Shown one piece after another: positions 22,745 through 31,882 of a DNA stretch of 51,161 nucleotides. Positions within the stretch are counted from its first letter, which is position 1. Every line of letters starts with the position of its first letter. Below the pieces are notes generated by a model that made no database searches, was not told the DNA's origin, and worked only from the letters and a program-made list of their open reading frames with translations. The translations under genes were made by a program, and so were the position numbers. Source of the stretch: Gammaproteobacteria bacterium (GTDB taxonomy: Bacteria; Pseudomonadota; Gammaproteobacteria; GCA-002705445; GCA-002716945); NCBI GenBank assembly GCA_030835925.1, contig JAURQW010000024.1, positions 1-51,161 on the forward strand. The letters are read 5' to 3'.

Positions 22745-23463
22745 AATTTGAAGCTATCGCCCAAGTATACGCTTTGAACAATTTTATCTTTGACAATTTC
22801 AGATGGTTTCCCATGTGCTATGACTTTTCCATCACTAATGATATATGATTCATCGCATACTTTTAATGTCTCTCTAACATTATGATCTGTAATTAGCACG
22901 CCTATGTCTACATTTATTAAATCTTTTATGATCTTTTGTATTTCAATAATTGAAATTGGATCTATTCCAGCAAATGGCTCATCTAGTAGTAGGAACTTTG
23001 GCTCAATAGCTAAAGCCCTTGCTATTTCTACCCGCCTTCTTTCTCCTCCTGATAAGCTAGCTCCATTACTATCGAGTATATTTTCTATCTGCAATGTTGA
23101 TACTAGTGAATCTAGTTTTATTTGTCTTTGTTTTAAAGAGAGATGTTTCCTGGTTTCAAGGATTGCCATAATATTATCTCTAACATTTAAGTTTCTAAAT
23201 ATAGAAGGTTCTTGCGGCAAATAACTTATACCCAGGTTAGATCTCAAGTGCATTGGAAGGTTTGTAATATCAGTATCATTTATCTTAATTAGACCGCTAT
23301 TACATTTTATTAGACCCACGAGCATATAAAACGTTGTTGTCTTTCCAGCCCCATTTGGACCCAACAGACCAACGACCTTTTTAGCATGAAGATTTATGCT
23401 TACTTTATCAACAACTTTTTTGTCATTATATTTTTTAACAAGATCCGTACAGTTCAGGTGCAT
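22741..23463 (-). CDS. lptB: LPS export ABC transporter ATP-binding protein
   Basis: 240 aa; GLLGPNGAGKTTTFYMLVGLI, SLSGGERRRVEIARALA, LLLDEPFAGIDPISI, LITDHNVRETL. Confidence 0.95.
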   Translation of the reverse strand: MHLNCTDLVKKYNDKKVVDKVSINLHAKKVVGLLGPNGAGKTTTFYMLVGLIKCNSGLIKINDTDITNLPMHLRSNLGISYLPQEPSIFRNLNVRDNIMAILETRKHLSLKQRQIKLDSLVSTLQIENILDSNGASLSGGERRRVEIARALAIEPKFLLLDEPFAGIDPISIIEIQKIIKDLINVDIGVLITDHNVRETLKVCDESYIISDGKVIAHGKPSEIVKDKIVQSVYLGDSFKL

Positions 23464-24218
23464 TATTTAACCTTTTTAGTTTTTAAGATAGTCTTAACTC
23501 TATTTTGTATTTGTATCTTATCATTTTGGCCTTCTTTTTTAAGCAAAACCCATGTTTTTTTATTAAGATCATACAGCATCGTTTCGCCCTCTAATTCTTC
23601 AGCACGATCATCAGTATTTGATATCCTCTTTGCATTAGAGAGTATTCTAATTTTCCCCGTCTTCATATTCGCTATTACTCCATTACCAGAGGTTTTAGAA
23701 TTCGGAGTAGTTATTGTTGCAAATTCGCTTGTTTCTATAATTTCTTGATTAGGGTATATGATAGCTTTTGACGTTATTATATTAACTTCATTGACTTTAT
23801 TGTTATCATATTTATTAAATATTACATTATCTTTTAAGTATATTGTTTTAAAAAGAGAGTCAGGATCAAGCGCATGGTCTGCTTGGATTATCCAAAAAGA
23901 TTTTTCAGATGATCTTATATTCATAAATGGCATTATGACCTCTGATCTTAAACTATTTGGAAACTTTTCAAGCTTATCTCCAGAAAGTGTCCATGCTAAT
24001 TGTCCATTAACATCTGTTTCAGACATTTCAAAATCATTTAAGAAATGATTAGAAACACTAGAGTCTTTATTAAGCGAATTATAATTTAATGCTTCTGATA
24101 AAATATTATTAATCAACAAAAAGAACGATAACACTATTATAGTTATTAGAATAGTTTTCCTAGAAAATTTTAAAAGGAAATTATTTATTAGATTTTTTAT
24201 CATTTTTTGCGAGTACAA
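23463..24218 (-). CDS. lptC: LPS export protein LptC with C-terminal extension (possible LptA-derived segment)
   Basis: 251 aa; N-terminal TM, LNDFEMSETDVNGQLAWTLSGDKLEKFPNS, WIIQADHALDPDSLFKTIYLKDNVIF; position between lptB and kdsC; start may be the internal ATG near 24203. Confidence 0.75.
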   Translation of the reverse strand: MYSQKMIKNLINNFLLKFSRKTILITIIVLSFFLLINNILSEALNYNSLNKDSSVSNHFLNDFEMSETDVNGQLAWTLSGDKLEKFPNSLRSEVIMPFMNIRSSEKSFWIIQADHALDPDSLFKTIYLKDNVIFNKYDNNKVNEVNIITSKAIIYPNQEIIETSEFATITTPNSKTSGNGVIANMKTGKIRILSNAKRISNTDDRAEELEGETMLYDLNKKTWVLLKKEGQNDKIQIQNRVKTILKTKKVK

Positions 24219-24729: not shown

Positions 24730-25697
24730 TATTCAATTCCATTTCTAAGAAGTTCATTAAGAGTTAGCAAGCCAACTACAGTTTTATCATGATTAATAAC
24801 TACTAAAGAAGTTATTTCATTTTTTTCCATTATACTTAATGCTTCAACTGCCATGGTATCTATTGACACCACCAAGGGTTTCTTGGTCATTACTTTATAT
24901 AAGCTTAATGCTGAAATATTTTTATGCTTTTTTAGTACTCTTCTTAGATCGCCATCAGTAAATATTCCTTTGAGTTGTTTTGAAGAATTCAATATTATGA
25001 CAATACCATAATTATATCTCGTAACTACATCAATGGCTTTCATCAAAGGTAGATCCTTATAAACATAAGGTAATTTCTTAGTAAACATTATATCTTCCGA
25101 CTTACGAAGGAGTCTTTTACCTAAACTTCCTTGAGGATGTGATTTCGCAAAGTCTTTAGACGTGAAACCTCTACACTCTAAAAGAGTAATTGCGAGTGCA
25201 TCTGACATCGCTATAGCAGATATAACGCTAGATGTAGGAGCTAAATCTAGAGGACATGCCTCAGATTTGACACCAGAATCTATTATCACATTCGTGTTTT
25301 TAGAAAGCGTCGATCTTTTATTTCCCGTTATGGTAATTAGCGGAATTTTTAGAATCTTGAATAAGGGCAACAAAAGCAACAGTTCTTTTGTTTCACCAGA
25401 ATTTGAGTAAAATATAACAACATCAGATTTCTCAACCAAACCCATATCACCATGCAAAGCTTCTGCCGCATGTAGAAATATCGAAGGACTGCCTGTGCTT
25501 GAAAAAGTTGCAGATGCTTTTTTAGCAACATGGCCAGATTTTCCGAGACCAATTGTAATTATTTTACCTTTACAGGCCAACAAAAGATCACATGCTTTTT
25601 CAAAGTTGCGATCAATCTTTTTTGTTAGTTGATTTAATGCCTGAGCCTCTTTTTTAATTGTTTTTTTGGCAATAGATGCTTTGTCGATATTTCTCAT
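24729..25697 (-). CDS. kdsD: Arabinose-5-phosphate isomerase
   Basis: 322 aa SIS plus tandem CBS; GLGKSGHVAKKASATFSSTGSPSIFLHAAEALHGDMG, IFYSNSGETKELL, AKSHPQGSLGKRLL. Confidence 0.95.
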   Translation of the reverse strand: MRNIDKASIAKKTIKKEAQALNQLTKKIDRNFEKACDLLLACKGKIITIGLGKSGHVAKKASATFSSTGSPSIFLHAAEALHGDMGLVEKSDVVIFYSNSGETKELLLLLPLFKILKIPLITITGNKRSTLSKNTNVIIDSGVKSEACPLDLAPTSSVISAIAMSDALAITLLECRGFTSKDFAKSHPQGSLGKRLLRKSEDIMFTKKLPYVYKDLPLMKAIDVVTRYNYGIVIILNSSKQLKGIFTDGDLRRVLKKHKNISALSLYKVMTKKPLVVSIDTMAVEALSIMEKNEITSLVVINHDKTVVGLLTLNELLRNGIE

Positions 25698-26667
25698 AAA
25701 CTTATGCCATACAAACTAATTTGATACATTGTGAATAATCCAAGTAATAGTGTACATAAAATCTTACTAAATAAATAATTATGGTTTTTTATTATAATAT
25801 AAAAGCACACCATTGTAATTAGGATCATAATTATATCTCGTAATAAATCTGTAATATATAGTGGTTTAGGGAGCTCTAATGCAAATAAACCAGCTAGACT
25901 TATCACTATAGCAAAATTAAATATATTAGATCCAAGGATATTACCAATTATAAAATCAACATTTTTCTTTCTAGCAGACTCAATGCTTGATGCTAATTCA
26001 GGAATACTTGAACCTATCGCAGTAATTGAAAGCCCTATTACATAATTTGATATGCCATAATGTTTAGCAACTATAATACTACTATTTAATAATAACTCAG
26101 TCCCAACCAAAAGAGTCAGTAATCCAAATATCAGGTTTGCGAATACCCTCGCATTACTTTTTAAGTCTTCTGAGTTTACTTTCTTATAATTTTTTGAATC
26201 TTGATAGACGAATTTCTTATATAAAAATACAAGGATAAAAAAAGAAATTATTAAAAGTATAGAATCATTAACTGAGATCGTGCCATCTTTAAGTATTAAA
26301 AATACTAGTATAGAAATTATTATCAGAATAAACATGAAACCATATGTTTCTCGATCAATAAATCTGTTAACAGGTAATATATCTTTTTTAAGAAACAAAT
26401 AACTAATAGCAAATACAAACGCGATATTTGAATATTTGATCCTAATGCATTACCAATAGCTATATTAGATTCACCATCGAGACTGGATATGATTGAGATG
26501 AATATTTCAGGAGAAGATGTAGCTAAGCCAATAAAAATAAAACTAGATAAAAAATAAGAGATATTATATTTTTTTGAGATATTCTCGGTAGATGCAACAA
26601 GCACATTCGCTCCATAGCTGACCAATGCGAGACCTAAGACAAATAATAAAAAAACTGTGATTGTCAT
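25694..26667 (-). pseudogene. yrbG: CaCA-family calcium/sodium antiporter (YrbG-like), split by an apparent 1-nt frameshift
   Basis: Two overlapping ORFs (26323..26667 N-terminal, 25694..26398 C-terminal). Restoring one base between 26430 and 26431 gives GNALGSNIANIAFVFAISYLFLKKD, the expected exchanger motif. Confidence 0.8.
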
Positions 26668-26687: not shown

Positions 26688-27431
26688 TTAATAATCTACA
26701 CCTATCACATCGATTTCAAAATCTTCTTCCGATTCCCCATCATTAACCATGGATTCACGCTTTTGTAGATAAGATTCTCTGATAAAGATATATTTATCTT
26801 TAGCAGCAGTATCAAGTATTTTTGTTGCTCTGAGTAGTCTTGCGCGTATATCAATTACACTCAAAGTATCTAATGCAAGCTCTTCTTTATTATGAAGCTG
26901 TTGAACAGGCGATATTTGTCTATCTGCATATAAACCTGGAGCATCTCTAAATGAGCTTGATCCAAAAAAAGGTAATACCAAATAAGGTCCTTGTGGCACA
27001 CCCCAGTAACCTAAAGTTTGTCCAAAATCTTCCTTATTTTTAGTCAATCCTATAGGCGTAGCAACATCGAAAATACCAAGAATTCCTACAGTGGTATTTA
27101 TAGAGAATCTAAGAAAATCATAACCAGCTTGTTGAAATTTAAATTGAAATACATCATTTGCTATCGTGCTCACTTCTCCAAGATTACTAAAAAAATTTGA
27201 TACTCCAGTTTCAATGGGGTCAGGAGTTACATATTTATACGTTTTTGCAACAGGTTCTAAGACATTATCATCGACAACTTCATTAAACCCAAACATTGCT
27301 CTATTAAAAGGCTCTAAAGGATCATTTTTAGAATTGCCTGTTGTACTGCAACTAGATAATAAAAATACTAAAATAATAGAGGATAAAATTGAGTACCTTG
27401 GTGAAAATTGATAAATTTTTGAATATTTCAT
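26688..27431 (-). CDS. mlaA: MlaA / VacJ family outer-membrane lipoprotein
   Basis: 247 aa; lipobox LLSSCS, DPLEPFNRAMFGFNEVVDDNVLEPVAKTYKYVTP, FGQTLGYWGVPQGPYLVLPFFGSSSFRDAPG. Confidence 0.95.
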   Translation of the reverse strand: MKYSKIYQFSPRYSILSSIILVFLLSSCSTTGNSKNDPLEPFNRAMFGFNEVVDDNVLEPVAKTYKYVTPDPIETGVSNFFSNLGEVSTIANDVFQFKFQQAGYDFLRFSINTTVGILGIFDVATPIGLTKNKEDFGQTLGYWGVPQGPYLVLPFFGSSSFRDAPGLYADRQISPVQQLHNKEELALDTLSVIDIRARLLRATKILDTAAKDKYIFIRESYLQKRESMVNDGESEEDFEIDVIGVDY

Positions 27432-27490
27432 AATTATTGCTTAAATATGTTTAATTTATTTCCTATAATATTGATATTATACCTTTAACT

Positions 27491-28081
27491 ATGAAAATAC
27501 TTAAATACATAATTGCTATTTTTATTCTTTTTTCTTCATATTCATTTGCTAGTGATGGTCCAGATGTGTTTCTGAAAAATAGCGTAGAAGAAATATCAGA
27601 ATTTATATCAGAAAACAAAGATAGCCTAGATACTGATGAAAATTATCTAAGAGCAAAAGTTGATGAATTAGTTATACCAAAACTTGACATCAAGCTCATG
27701 TCAAAAATTGTATTAGGCAAAAAGAACTGGACATCTATGAACCCAAACCTACGTACGAAATTTCAACAAGCTTTTAGAACCCTCATGGTTAAAACATATA
27801 TGAAATCGCTAACAAGTTTTGATGGTGAAAAAATAAAGTTTTTACCTTATAAAAAAGGTGAACGCCCAGATGTAGCTAGAGTAAAGTCAGTTTATCTTCT
27901 CAATGAAGGAGAATTGAGTGTAAACTATAGTCTAAAACTTAATAAATCTGCAGAATGGAAAGTTTACGACATTAATATCGATGGAATAAGCCTCATTAAA
28001 AATTATAGGTCAGATTTTAAAAGTCATATTGAAAGAGATGGTATTGATTCTTTAATAGAAGAATTAGAAGCCAAACAATAA
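27491..28081 (+). CDS. mlaC: MlaC / Ttg2D family periplasmic phospholipid-binding protein
   Basis: 196 aa; signal peptide; VDELVIPKLDIKLMSKIVLGKKNWTSMNPNLRTKFQQAFRTLMVKTYMKSLTSF, YKLKLN/WKVYDINIDGISLIKNYRSDF. Confidence 0.9.
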   Translation: MKILKYIIAIFILFSSYSFASDGPDVFLKNSVEEISEFISENKDSLDTDENYLRAKVDELVIPKLDIKLMSKIVLGKKNWTSMNPNLRTKFQQAFRTLMVKTYMKSLTSFDGEKIKFLPYKKGERPDVARVKSVYLLNEGELSVNYSLKLNKSAEWKVYDINIDGISLIKNYRSDFKSHIERDGIDSLIEELEAKQ

Positions 28082-28097
28082 TATTAAATTAATAAAT

Positions 28098-30560
28098 TTA
28101 AAAAGGTTTAAAAGAAATTAGTAGTTTAGGTAATAGCGTTAATACCGCTACTAATGCAATGAACATTGCAAGTCCAGTTAGCAAGCCAAAGATAATGGTT
28201 GGAATAAAATTTGATAGAACAAGTATTGAAAAACCAAAAATTATGGTTATACCAGTGAAGAATATTGCCCTGCCAATGCTGTCATGTGATCGATATACTG
28301 ATTCGCTATAGTTTTTTGTCTTATTATATTCCTCTCTAAACCTATAGATATAATGTATGCTGTTATCAACTGCTATACCTACTGCAATAGCAGCAATTGT
28401 TATTGTCATCATATCTAGAGGAAGTTTAATCAGACCCATTAGCCCTAAAACAAAACCAGCAGCTAGCAGGTTTGGTATAATCCCTATTACCGCCAATGAT
28501 AGAGATTTAAAAAGTATCAAAAACATGGTGGTTATGCCAATCATCACAAAACCCATAGACAAAATTTGTGAATTAAATAAGCTTTGAAGCATATTATTGT
28601 ATAACACCAATACCCCTGTTAAATAAAACGAATCTTTATTGAATCCTAGTTTATTTAACATATCATTTTCAATTTTCCGGATGAGATTATCTCTCCTCAA
28701 ATCTGGATTAGAGTCTAATATTCTGACATTTATTCTCGCTTGATTCCTCTCTAGTGATACATAGGGGCTAATCGCAACATCTTTAACCTTTTTTGGAACT
28801 CTTTTATATAATAAAGCTAGTTCTAGACTATCTAATTCTTTACCTTCATTTAATTTTTCCGCAACCCTTACTGTTGATGCCAAAGACAAAACTTTACCAG
28901 TCTCTGATAATGAGTCTAAATAGTCATGAACTTTTTTTATTTTGTTAATTTTATTCTTGGTAAACCATTGTTGACTTACATCAGCCTCCTCTTCATCTAA
29001 TAAATCTAAATCATAATCATCTGATACATCATTAGATATATCATCTTCCTGAAATTGAATTATTATGTCTAGTGGAGTTGTCCCACCCAGTTTATCATCT
29101 ATCTTTTTCATACCTTTGTAGATTTCTGTATTAGCTTTAAAATAATTAATAAAACTGTTTTCAACTTTTAATTGAGATATGCCATATATTGTTAAAATTA
29201 ATATAAAAAAACTAATTGTTGTAATAGAAGAACCTTTCTTGACTGTAATATCTGCTAAAAACTTCGTAAATGCAAAAGCAGTAGTTTTTGATGTATTTTT
29301 ATTATTTTTTTTAAGCAAACATAAGATGCTTGGAAATAAAAAAAATGTCGTTACAAAGGTTACAATTAATCCTAGAGTCATCATGTAACCAAAATCTATT
29401 ACAGGTTTAATGTCACTTAGAACCAAGGAAGCAAATGCAACTATAGTTGTCAAGGCTGTATAAAGGCACGGCCAAACCATCTGTTTTGTTGTTTCATAGA
29501 CAGCTTCAACTTGTTTCGATGCTTCTGAACTAATCTGTCTATAGCGAACAATCAAATGGATATTCATAGAAAGAGTAAGAATAAGCATCAATGAAATAAA
29601 ATTAGATGAGATTACTGTTACTTCCCAATTTAATAGGCCCAATAAACCTATCATAAATATAACGGCATAGATGCAGCTTAATACTGGAAGTACAACCCAT
29701 TTTATTGATCTAAAGATAACTATCAGAGTTAGCACAATAAATATGAATACACCTAAACCAAAATTTATCAAATCATTTTTGACATACAATATCATGTCAT
29801 CTGCAATCATTGGAATTCCACCCATGCGTAATTCAATGTCATGTATTTCCATGAACTCCTTCTGAACATCTCTGGCCTGCTTAAGAAGATTATGAATTTG
29901 TTTATCATATAAACTTTTTATAGTTTTATATTCAGATTTGATTGTTTCAAGTCTCAATACTTCTAAAGATGTAATATTGCCACTAATTTTCTTGGATACT
30001 AGAGAAGCTTTAATTTTATTTAGTTCTAGTAGCTCAGGATTTGAACTTAAGATAATTTGTAGTGCAGTTGTAGTTCCGTCCTCAGATATTATTAAGTTCT
30101 TATAAATTGGACTATTTAAAATTTCTTTTTTAGCTTTAATTTTATCTGTGTTATTCGATAATAATGTAGGCACATTATTAATCATTTCTATGAGAGGAGT
30201 ATCAGAGCTTTCTACCAATGGAATATCAATTAATGAAACTACAGATTCAACATTATCAATGGATAATATCCTCTTTTTGAGTCTTTTAATGATACTTATA
30301 TTTTCTTCATCAAAGATATCTCCATTATTTGGGGAAAGCGTCATTACAATGAAGTCATTAGCGCCATAATCTTGGATTATATTTCTATATTTTGCTAAGT
30401 CCTTATCATTCTCCAATATTAGAGAATCAGCAGATGCATCCAATTTAAAATTTGGAATATTTACTATCATTATTCCAAGCATAAGTAGCATTATTACAAT
30501 TACATGTTTAGGATAATTTAGGATGTATTGTAAATATATGTGTGAAAAATTTTTAATCAT
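28098..30560 (-). CDS. RND-superfamily / MMPL-domain exporter (COG1033-like, HpnN-like)
   Basis: 820 aa; two hydrophobic multi-TM repeats separated by soluble loops; second repeat has MTITIAAIAVGIAVDNSIHYIYRFREEY and IFFTGITIIFGFSILVLSNF. Confidence 0.85.
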   Translation of the reverse strand: MIKNFSHIYLQYILNYPKHVIVIMLLMLGIMIVNIPNFKLDASADSLILENDKDLAKYRNIIQDYGANDFIVMTLSPNNGDIFDEENISIIKRLKKRILSIDNVESVVSLIDIPLVESSDTPLIEMINNVPTLLSNNTDKIKAKKEILNSPIYKNLIISEDGTTTALQIILSSNPELLELNKIKASLVSKKISGNITSLEVLRLETIKSEYKTIKSLYDKQIHNLLKQARDVQKEFMEIHDIELRMGGIPMIADDMILYVKNDLINFGLGVFIFIVLTLIVIFRSIKWVVLPVLSCIYAVIFMIGLLGLLNWEVTVISSNFISLMLILTLSMNIHLIVRYRQISSEASKQVEAVYETTKQMVWPCLYTALTTIVAFASLVLSDIKPVIDFGYMMTLGLIVTFVTTFFLFPSILCLLKKNNKNTSKTTAFAFTKFLADITVKKGSSITTISFFILILTIYGISQLKVENSFINYFKANTEIYKGMKKIDDKLGGTTPLDIIIQFQEDDISNDVSDDYDLDLLDEEEADVSQQWFTKNKINKIKKVHDYLDSLSETGKVLSLASTVRVAEKLNEGKELDSLELALLYKRVPKKVKDVAISPYVSLERNQARINVRILDSNPDLRRDNLIRKIENDMLNKLGFNKDSFYLTGVLVLYNNMLQSLFNSQILSMGFVMIGITTMFLILFKSLSLAVIGIIPNLLAAGFVLGLMGLIKLPLDMMTITIAAIAVGIAVDNSIHYIYRFREEYNKTKNYSESVYRSHDSIGRAIFFTGITIIFGFSILVLSNFIPTIIFGLLTGLAMFIALVAVLTLLPKLLISFKPF

Positions 30561-30619: not shown

Positions 30620-31882
30620 ATGGATAAATTAATAATAAATGGTATGGTGCCTTTAAATGGTGAAGTAGCAATTTCGGGTGCTAAAAATGCTGTTCTGCCT
30701 ATGTTATGTGCATCAGTCTTGGTCGACAGCGGAAGTGTCGTATTAAAAAATATCCCACATCTTCATGATGTAACGACAACAGTCAGGTTATTAAGATCAA
30801 TGGGAGTGAGTGTAACCCTCGATGATAATATGAATATCGAGCTTGATCCCTCAACAATTAAAAATTTTTATGCTCCGTACGATCTCGTTAAAACCATGAG
30901 ATCATCAATATTAGTCTTAGGTCCGCTATTATCAAAATTTGGACAAGCAAAAGTGTCTTTACCAGGAGGTTGCGCTATCGGCACAAGACCCGTAGAAATG
31001 CATTTGGATGCTTTGACTAGGATGGGTGCTTCTATAAAAATAGAAAATGGTTATATAACTGCAACAACAACAAAACTAGTTGGTACGAATATCAACTTTC
31101 CAAAATCAACAGTTACTGGCACTGAGAATATATTAATGGCTTCAACTTTAGCTGAGGGAAATACGATTATTTATAATGCTGCACGAGAACCTGAGGTTGT
31201 TGACTTGGGTAATTTTTTAAATGAAATGGGAGCATCAATAACAGGTCATGGCACAGATACTATCAAAATCAAAGGTGTCTCAGAACTCAAAGGAATCTCT
31301 TATAGCGCTTTGCCAGATAGAATTGAAACAGGGACTTTTCTTGTAGCAGCTGCAATTACGGGTGGCAAAATTACTGTAAAGAATACAATACCTGAGCATG
31401 TCGAGACCATAATTCAAAAACTAAAAGAATCTGGAGCAAAAATTTCATCATCCAAAACTTCAATTACATTAGACATGAAAGGTGTAAAACCAAAACCCGT
31501 GAATATTGAAACAGGTGCATATCCATTATTTCCAACAGATATGCAAGCCCAAATCACAGCATTAAATACGATAGCTGATGGAATAAGCATAATAAAAGAA
31601 AATATATTTGAAAACCGCTTTATGCATGTACAAGAAATGACTAGAATGGGAGCAGAAATTAGGTTGGAGAAGAACTGTGCGATAATATCAGGTGTTGATA
31701 ACCTGGTAGGTGCTCCGGTAATGGCAACAGATTTGAGGGCTTCTGCTAGTTTAATTTTAGTTGGCTTAGCCGCCAAAGGAACTACCGAAATTGAAAGAAT
31801 ATATCATATTGACAGAGGATATGATTGTATAGAAGAAAAATTAAGGCAACTTGGCGCTGATATCAGTAGAGAGCCAATGTAA
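30620..31882 (+). CDS. murA: UDP-N-acetylglucosamine 1-carboxyvinyltransferase
   Basis: 420 aa; [63 protein letters not shown]. Confidence 0.95.

Follow-up and report, generated by a model that had tools for sequence, protein, structure and literature searches.

How phospholipids travel between inner and outer membrane in Gram-negative bacteria has long been debated, as regards both direction and energy source, and the Mla pathway is usually viewed as inseparable from its ABC-MCE machine. In E. coli the pathway consists of MlaA with OmpC/F, of MlaC and of the MlaFEDB complex, and the gene order at this site is murA-ibaG-mlaB-C-D-E-F||yrbG-kdsD. A further known system is the hopanoid transporter HpnN-HpnM, in which an HAE3/MMPL protein is paired with a protein of the MlaC family.

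The window analysed here is a stretch of 51,161 nucleotides from a marine gammaproteobacterium (contig JAURQW010000024.1). As in E. coli, homologues of MlaA and MlaC are present and the site lies between yrbG-kdsD and murA. The order is mlaA(-), mlaC(+) and an MMPL/RND gene (-), with yrbG-kdsD-kdsC-lptC-lptB-rpoN as left-hand and murA-hisG as right-hand flank (Table 1), and comparison of gene order places the trio where E. coli has mlaFEDCB-ibaG. This arrangement was the starting point of the original prediction, and profile matches as well as the identities of the flanking genes bear it out. The predicted lack of mlaF, mlaE, mlaD, mlaB and ibaG at the site was also confirmed. With the E. coli Mla proteins as queries no MlaB, MlaD, MlaE, MlaF or IbaG was found in the window; the queries match only MlaC, MurA, YrbG and LptB, the last being a paralogue of MlaF. 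Thus, unlike E. coli, the locus carries an RND/MMPL protein in place of the ABC-MCE complex. The MlaC protein has a canonical carrier domain. The window copy of yrbG has a frame break and the gene is intact in a related locus (L057); lptA too is absent between lptC and lptB. Promoter and terminator scans of the region yielded no more than expected by chance.

Table 1. Features of the mla site and its flanks in the window
Feature	Position	Strand	Basis
mlaA, outer-membrane lipoprotein, 247 aa	26688..27431	-	PF04333 E=2.5e-77; sole MlaA of genome
MlaA C-terminal acidic tail (..DGESEEDFEIDVIGVDY), predicted MlaC-docking tail	26691..26750	-	sequence; E. coli MlaA tail (PMC10245069)
mlaC, periplasmic phospholipid carrier, 196 aa	27491..28081	+	PF05494 E=2e-44; PDB relatives MlaC/Ttg2D; sole MlaC of genome
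MMPL/RND (HAE3-type) inner-membrane protein, 820 aa, 12 TM, proposed MlaFEDB replacement	28098..30560	-	PF03176 E=8e-33, two repeats
MMPL acidic-aromatic disordered periplasmic loop, aa 503-531, proposed MlaC-docking loop	28968..29054	-	pLDDT<50 at aa 509-527
Asp732 codon (TM10), one retained RND intramembrane aspartate of MMPL	28365..28367	-	alignment, Asp in 50/54
murA, right flank of ancestral mla site	30620..31882	+	same side in E. coli
yrbG, left flank of ancestral mla site, frame-shifted here	25694..26667	-	PF01699 in both halves

The genome that contains the window is a 0.92 Mb assembly of 83.5% completeness, in which the MMPL protein is the only member of the A1 family. The genome-wide search for mlaD and mlaE that the original prediction called for retrieved neither gene: MlaE is found in 0/25 genomes of the family (its own and 24 further members, some of them 99-100% complete), and so is the MCE domain that defines MlaD. 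A gap in the metagenome-assembled genome is therefore rejected as the cause of the missing MlaFED. Nor is the locus itself an assembly artefact, since 17 independent contigs, three of which are truncated, show the identical order (L009-L022, L026, L035, L036), and near-complete relatives share it (L057, L058).

We then asked how the MMPL subfamily is distributed in a sample of 258 gammaproteobacterial genomes, nearly all of which are at least 90% complete. MlaE is absent from 30 of them. All 22 MlaE-less genomes with MlaC (17 families) carry this MMPL subfamily, against none of the eight that also lack MlaC (6 families). The profile becomes 19/19 versus 0/8 when the family of the window is removed, and 21/22 without G087, whose MMPL protein is a long-branch member of the tree. 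Taken over the whole sample, the subfamily occurs in 22/30 MlaE-less and 27/228 MlaE-containing genomes (p=2.8e-12). The expected co-occurrence was thus recovered, as MlaC without MlaE is seen solely alongside this MMPL subfamily. MlaA is retained in 21 of the 22 genomes; G291 has MlaC and MMPL and lacks MlaA. A single-MCE MlaD is present in none of the 22, and we reject the idea that another MCE protein serves MlaC, because 19 of these genomes have no MCE domain at all and three have only a PqiB-type triple MCE protein. The MMPL tree calls for 12 or more changes in MlaE state, nine of them forced by well-supported branches, and therefore the pattern does not go back to a single evolutionary event.

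The MMPL protein does not exclude MCE systems, since 27 of the 228 MlaE-containing genomes also possess it, often away from the mla genes. It can coexist with them and may have another job there. In lineage f105 it is encoded directly upstream of mlaC-ibaG while the MlaFED genes are elsewhere in the genome. The original prediction, that an RND protein has replaced the MCE complex as partner of MlaA and MlaC, is supported by the profile and by the recurring gene pairing, with this coexistence as a point against it; its proton-motive-force drive, its exporter role and a binding of MlaC by the MMPL protein are putative. The 27 genomes of the class sample that combine an MlaE system with this MMPL gene are distant ones, and none belongs to the family of the window.

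Gene neighbourhoods in other lineages point in the same direction. We found kdsD||MMPL-mlaC in three loci (L023, L032, L063), followed by murA in L023 and L032, MMPL-mlaC-ibaG in L067, and yrbG||MMPL in L028 and L030. In these loci the MMPL gene occupies the mlaFED site of E. coli (mlaFEDCB-ibaG-murA). Two further loci have an operon of just the three genes mlaA-MMPL-mlaC (L096, L100), and other operons read MMPL-mlaC (L107), MMPL-mlaA-yrbG (L089) and mlaA-MMPL (L139), so that MMPL adjoins mlaC, mlaA or both in several differently ordered operons.

By its sequence the MMPL protein is a divergent subfamily of the HAE3/MMPL branch of the RND superfamily, because it scores 195 bits with TIGR00921 (HAE3), below the curated cut-off of 351.9. 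PF03176 matches in two stretches, and the secondary structure of the AF2 model (pLDDT 85, pTM 0.80) gives two transmembrane blocks and two periplasmic loops. In Foldseek the model matches MmpL, HpnN and NPC1 proteins, the best matches being MmpL3, MmpL4 and MmpL5 with a TM-score of about 0.65-0.69 by query length; the sequence also matches the sterol-sensing-domain profile. The predicted fold is thus that of lipid-moving RND proteins. Among the 54 aligned MMPL proteins His335 is invariant, whereas the counterpart of Asp732 in TM4, Ser331, is Ser in 50 and Asp in none. Proton coupling is uncertain, because the protein retains only one of the two intramembrane aspartates that are classical for RND proteins.

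The acidic-aromatic loop is found in 93% of the family compared with 10% of 20 control HAE3 paralogues (net acidity p=1e-8), and its composition resembles that of acidic MlaA tails. In E. coli the cleft of MlaC receives the tail of MlaA (PMC10245069). A lineage-wise match of the loop to the MlaA tail of the same genome was not significant (permutation p=0.11), with HTCC5015 as a striking exception; we therefore dropped the genome-matched likeness and claim only the general character of the loop. Divergence at the MlaD-binding residues of MMPL-linked MlaC proteins (p=0.01 raw, 0.05 when corrected for variability) is only suggestive of a changed interface.

We suggest that the trio probably constitutes an MCE-independent Mla pathway, in which the MMPL/RND protein takes the inner-membrane role of MlaFEDB. 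The proposal is based on gene content and order, the absence of MlaE and MCE proteins, the phylogenetic co-occurrence, the predicted RND fold and the family-specific loop; the physical docking of MlaC, the cargo and the proton coupling we infer. The transfer could proceed in the following way. MlaC would take up a glycerophospholipid at MlaA in the outer membrane and, once loaded, traverse the periplasm. Its positively charged cleft would dock on the MMPL protein at the acidic-aromatic loop, which would be the analog of the beta6-beta7 loop of MlaD in E. coli, and lipid could be exchanged between MlaC and the periplasmic domain of the MMPL protein. Finally the MMPL protein would shift the lipid between MlaC and the inner membrane, with the proton motive force as drive.

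As for direction, analogy leads us to favour slightly a retrograde transport (outer to inner membrane) over export. One retrograde analogue is Mla with MlaA, another the transfer of sterol from NPC2 to NPC1, which has an RND fold; the export analogues are HpnN and MmpL3. The opposite course, in which the identical MlaA-MlaC-MMPL pathway would supply the outer membrane with glycerophospholipids taken from the inner one, is a variant of our main reading and a real, if the less probable, possibility. Bacterial MMPL/RND proteins of known function are exporters, and the direction of canonical Mla has itself been a matter of debate (PMC10212509, PMC6365058). However, MlaA of E. coli functions in the retrograde sense, and since NPC1 receives its lipid from a soluble carrier, the fold shared according to Foldseek does not force export.

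It is rather improbable that the pairing serves an export of the HpnN/HpnM type. In that case the MMPL protein would deliver a special amphiphile, be it a hopanoid, a sterol or some other lipid, to MlaC and to the outer membrane, with no part in general phospholipid homeostasis. Among NCBIfam models, HAE3 and HpnN come nearest to the MMPL protein and HpnM to MlaC, HpnN is the best PDB sequence match of the MMPL protein, and the known routes with an RND protein and a carrier, for sterols (BstABC, PMC10942540) and for hopanoids, are export routes. Yet the scores are far below the cut-offs (HpnN 131 versus 752 bits, HpnM 71 versus 160). Moreover, genes for squalene-hopene cyclase (SHC; PF13243) or oxidosqualene cyclase (OSC) are missing from all 19 genomes of the family that were searched and from the majority of the remaining genomes without MlaE, and for the window's family we reject hopanoid or sterol export on this ground. 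The retention of MlaA also argues against it, its known role being the removal of phospholipids from the outer leaflet.

Could the three genes be without functional link? MlaFED would then have been lost in reduced genomes, MlaA and MlaC would be relics or passive, and an unrelated MMPL transporter would have been kept by chance. Many of the genomes concerned are indeed small, and in most large genomes the MMPL gene is distant from the mla genes. We consider this unlikely, however, as the 22/22 versus 0/8 profile is not confined to small genomes but includes several of 2-5 Mb, operons made up of just these genes recur, and MlaC and MMPL are full-length and conserved in the family loci inspected. 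That MlaC hands its lipid to another ABC transporter with MMPL as an accessory, as mlaC-ABC ATPase-permease-murA in HTCC5015 (L043; an ABC-2 pair after mlaC) and ABC ATPase-MMPL-ABC-2 permease in f56 (L071/L090) might suggest, is very improbable, since a search of the mla site found no such pair in the window, its family or L023/L032.

Our analysis suggests a second, previously undescribed mode of the Mla pathway in this marine bacterium and many relatives. With somewhat less confidence than for the trio itself, we lean towards a widespread second Mla type that arose repeatedly, in 17 or more gammaproteobacterial families and in alphaproteobacteria, and in which a proton-driven RND protein instead of an ATP-driven MCE machine would serve MlaA and MlaC and a loop of the RND protein would mimic the MlaA tail to dock MlaC. 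In the open-access literature (subscription papers and preprints lie outside this scope) we found no paper on a pairing of MlaA, MlaC and MMPL, of HpnN and MlaC, or of MMPL and VacJ, and none placing MlaC and MMPL in one pathway; papers naming both are unrelated as judged by title and abstract. If the proposal is true, MlaA and MlaC can be served by more than one kind of motor, the direction and energetics of Mla lipid transfer can be probed in a case that does not depend on ATP, and a large uncharacterised MMPL subfamily gains a function.

Compared with the HpnN-HpnM system, the trio stands apart by the lack of a hopanoid synthesis gene, by the linkage to mlaA and the mla site and by the extra acidic loop. 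The mycobacterial MmpL3, MmpL4 and MmpL5 proteins transport lipids or siderophores like the proposed function here, but share only about 11-15% identity with the MMPL protein of the window, and they are not known to have an MlaC or MlaA partner. BstABC (sterols) and AmeABCD (monoterpene efflux) likewise combine an inner-membrane HAE3 RND protein with partners in the periplasm and the outer membrane (PMC10942540, PMC6394551), but these are the PBP-like BstB, BstC, the DUF1329/LolA-superfamily protein AmeB and others, not MlaC and MlaA. Finally, although the carrier folds differ and we claim an analogy and no orthology, eukaryotic sterol transfer also relies on an RND fold that takes lipid from a soluble carrier, with matches in fold and sterol-sensing domain, and the MlaC-MMPL pair would then be a bacterial parallel to the NPC2-NPC1 hand-off.

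At the site that MlaFEDB, the ATP-driven ABC-MCE complex of the canonical Mla pathway, occupies in E. coli K-12 (murA-ibaG-mlaB-mlaC-mlaD-mlaE-mlaF||yrbG-kdsD), the window carries mlaA, mlaC and a gene for an 820-aa MMPL/RND protein, here called MMPL. The arrangement is as originally noted, with yrbG-kdsD-kdsC-lptC-lptB-rpoN on one side and murA-hisG on the other. The genes mlaB, mlaD, mlaE, mlaF and ibaG are indeed missing from the window, since a search with the E. coli Mla-region proteins matched only MlaC, MurA, YrbG and LptB, a paralogue of MlaF. MlaA and MlaC are common to both organisms, whereas the window has MMPL where E. coli has the ABC-MCE genes. A frame shift splits yrbG in the window, through a mistake in assembly or through recent decay; the copy on contig L057 is intact. 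No lptA lies between lptC and lptB in the window nor, apparently, anywhere in the family, and LptC (251 aa) has a C-terminal extension; loci L023 and L032 retain a separate lptA.

Positions of the genes and loci discussed
Feature	Contig	Position	Strand
mlaA	window	26688-27431	-
mlaC	window	27491-28081	+
MMPL gene, 820 aa	window	28098-30560	-
yrbG	window	25694-26667	-
yrbG, two ORFs	window	26323-26667; 25694-26398	-
lptC/lptB, no lptA between	window	23463-24218	-
lolA-MMPL-mlaA-yrbG order	L089	4529-8445	
ABC-2 type pair, HTCC5015	L043	8667-10387	
ABC-2 type pair and MMPL gene, family f56	L090	2856-7132	
MMPL gene, HTCC5015	L037	10001-12604	
mlaA, HTCC5015	L043	6837-7655	

The absence extends beyond the window. 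The genome comprises 918,761 bases in 27 contigs and is 83.5% complete; we found in it neither MlaE nor an MCE domain, in line with the original hypothesis, and one copy each of MlaA, MlaC and MMPL. MlaE was not found in any of the 25 genomes of the family, some 99-100% complete; the same search detected it in 13 of 15 genomes from elsewhere in the class. Of the 25, 22 have MlaC and 23 have MlaA, those lacking either being 69-87% complete. Gene set and order around MMPL-mlaC-mlaA are kept on 17 independently assembled contigs, three of them incomplete (L014, L020, L021). Genome G309 has MlaA without MMPL and MlaC, and G093 of the same genus has all three (both 97-98% complete); the adjacent pair was either lost jointly or lies in an assembly gap.

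We then consider one class-wide set of 258 genomes (completeness of 90% or more and contamination of 5% or less in 254), searched for MMPL, MlaE and MlaC. The subfamily profile detected MMPL in 49 genomes. Its scores were mostly 760-1290 bits and dropped lower for a few members that are split or on long branches; other HAE3 proteins stayed below 250 bits. MlaE is absent from 30 genomes, and MMPL occurs in all 22 of these with MlaC and in none of the 8 without it (Fisher p=1.7e-7; 17 vs 6 families, which are not fully independent, so that p-values are indicative). The predicted co-occurrence is therefore borne out. Without the window's family the counts are 19/19 and 0/8; leaving out G087, whose MMPL is a long-branch member, gives 21/22. 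MlaA is found in 21 of the 22 genomes, 19 of which have no MCE domain and three only triple-MCE PqiB-type proteins. MlaE and MMPL were not found together within the family (MlaE in 0/25); class-wide, 27 of 228 MlaE-bearing genomes have MMPL. The MMPL tree requires 12 or more changes of MlaE state, nine of which are forced by well-supported branches; thus MlaE was lost repeatedly.

In loci L023, L032 and L063, MMPL(+) and kdsD(-) point away from each other, and mlaC(+) comes after MMPL. As murA comes next in L023 and L032, MMPL sits there exactly at the mlaFED position, co-directional with mlaC. Sponge symbionts (L028, L030) show yrbG(-)||MMPL(+) and mlaC-murA as separated halves, as expected from breakage of such a locus by rearrangement. 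Family f105 has MMPL-mlaC on two contigs (L066 and L067, in the latter followed by ibaG), and its genome G265 carries a different MlaFED cluster elsewhere. Independent operons read mlaA-MMPL-mlaC (L096, L100), MMPL-mlaC (L107), mlaA-MMPL (L139) and lolA-MMPL-mlaA-yrbG (L089), the lipoprotein carrier gene lolA immediately preceding MMPL. MlaE and MMPL occur together in Bermanella, HTCC5015, Halioglobus and one Nitrospirae-labelled bin; in HTCC5015 (L043) and Halioglobus (L048) a murA-adjacent mlaC lacks mlaFED neighbours. In HTCC5015 mlaC is followed by an ABC-2 type ATPase/permease pair, possibly a further partner; in family f56 such a pair flanks the MMPL gene on both sides. Four MMPL-bearing MAGs labelled as alphaproteobacteria all lack MlaE and MCE; MlaA is present in three and MlaC in two, assemblies missing either being 0.8-1.0 Mb. 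In L029, L031 and L040, from MAGs with the alphaproteobacterial label, MMPL lies between alr and cvpA, distant from mla genes, and yet MlaE is missing.

The AlphaFold2 model of MMPL (54-sequence alignment; pLDDT 85, pTM 0.80) matches MmpL3/4/5, HpnN, NPC1, NPC1L1 and NCR1 in Foldseek, with TM-scores mostly 0.64-0.70 by query length and 10-15% identity; the best PDB relative by sequence is HpnN. MmpL3 and HpnN have aspartates in both TM4 and TM10. MMPL shares the TM10 residue (Asp732, in 50/54 sequences), but its TM4 counterpart is Ser331 (Ser in 50/54, Asp in none), beside the invariant His335. Proton coupling is therefore only plausible.

We suggest that MMPL takes the place of MlaFEDB as inner-membrane partner of MlaC. 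The genes present, their position and co-occurrence, the predicted fold and the loop described below are observed; docking of MlaC, the glycerophospholipid cargo, the energy source and the direction we infer. Transfer might also run in the export direction; there is a slight preference for retrograde transfer by MMPL, given that MlaA has been kept and that the RND-fold protein NPC1 of eukaryotes accepts lipid from a soluble carrier. For this family we consider a role in hopanoid or sterol transport unlikely, as a search of 19 family genomes found no cyclase gene.

The loop (residues 503-531, EDDISNDVSDDYDLDLLDEEEADVSQQWF), a proposed docking site for MlaC, is acidic and aromatic, predicted to be disordered (pLDDT <50 at 509-527) and of conserved character. 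The motif [DE]{2}x0-2[FYW] occurs in 93% of the MMPL family vs 10% of 20 HAE3 paralogues, mean loop length is about 40 vs 9 residues, and net acidity differs likewise (p=1e-8). MlaA tails from the same organisms resemble these loops (window MlaA, SEEDFEIDVIGVDY). In HTCC5015 the MMPL loop has SEEEAIFGDDF and the MlaA C-terminus DEEDAIFGDDF, a near-identical stretch in two unrelated proteins, but the genome-by-genome match is not significant overall (p=0.11). E. coli MlaA, through its C-terminal tail, and MlaD, through its negatively charged beta6-beta7 loop, bind one and the same positively charged cleft of MlaC, probably not simultaneously (PMC10245069, PMC11289387). Between MMPL-linked MlaC and its MlaE-linked counterparts, residues that weaken MlaD binding when mutated diverge above average (p=0.01, 0.05 corrected), which is suggestive only.

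In the open-access literature we found no MlaC or VacJ paired with an MMPL protein in one pathway. HpnN/HpnM, BstABC (PMC10942540) and AmeABCD (PMC6394551) are known relatives. Both the Mla parts and the RND parts are already known; their joining in one pathway appears to be new.
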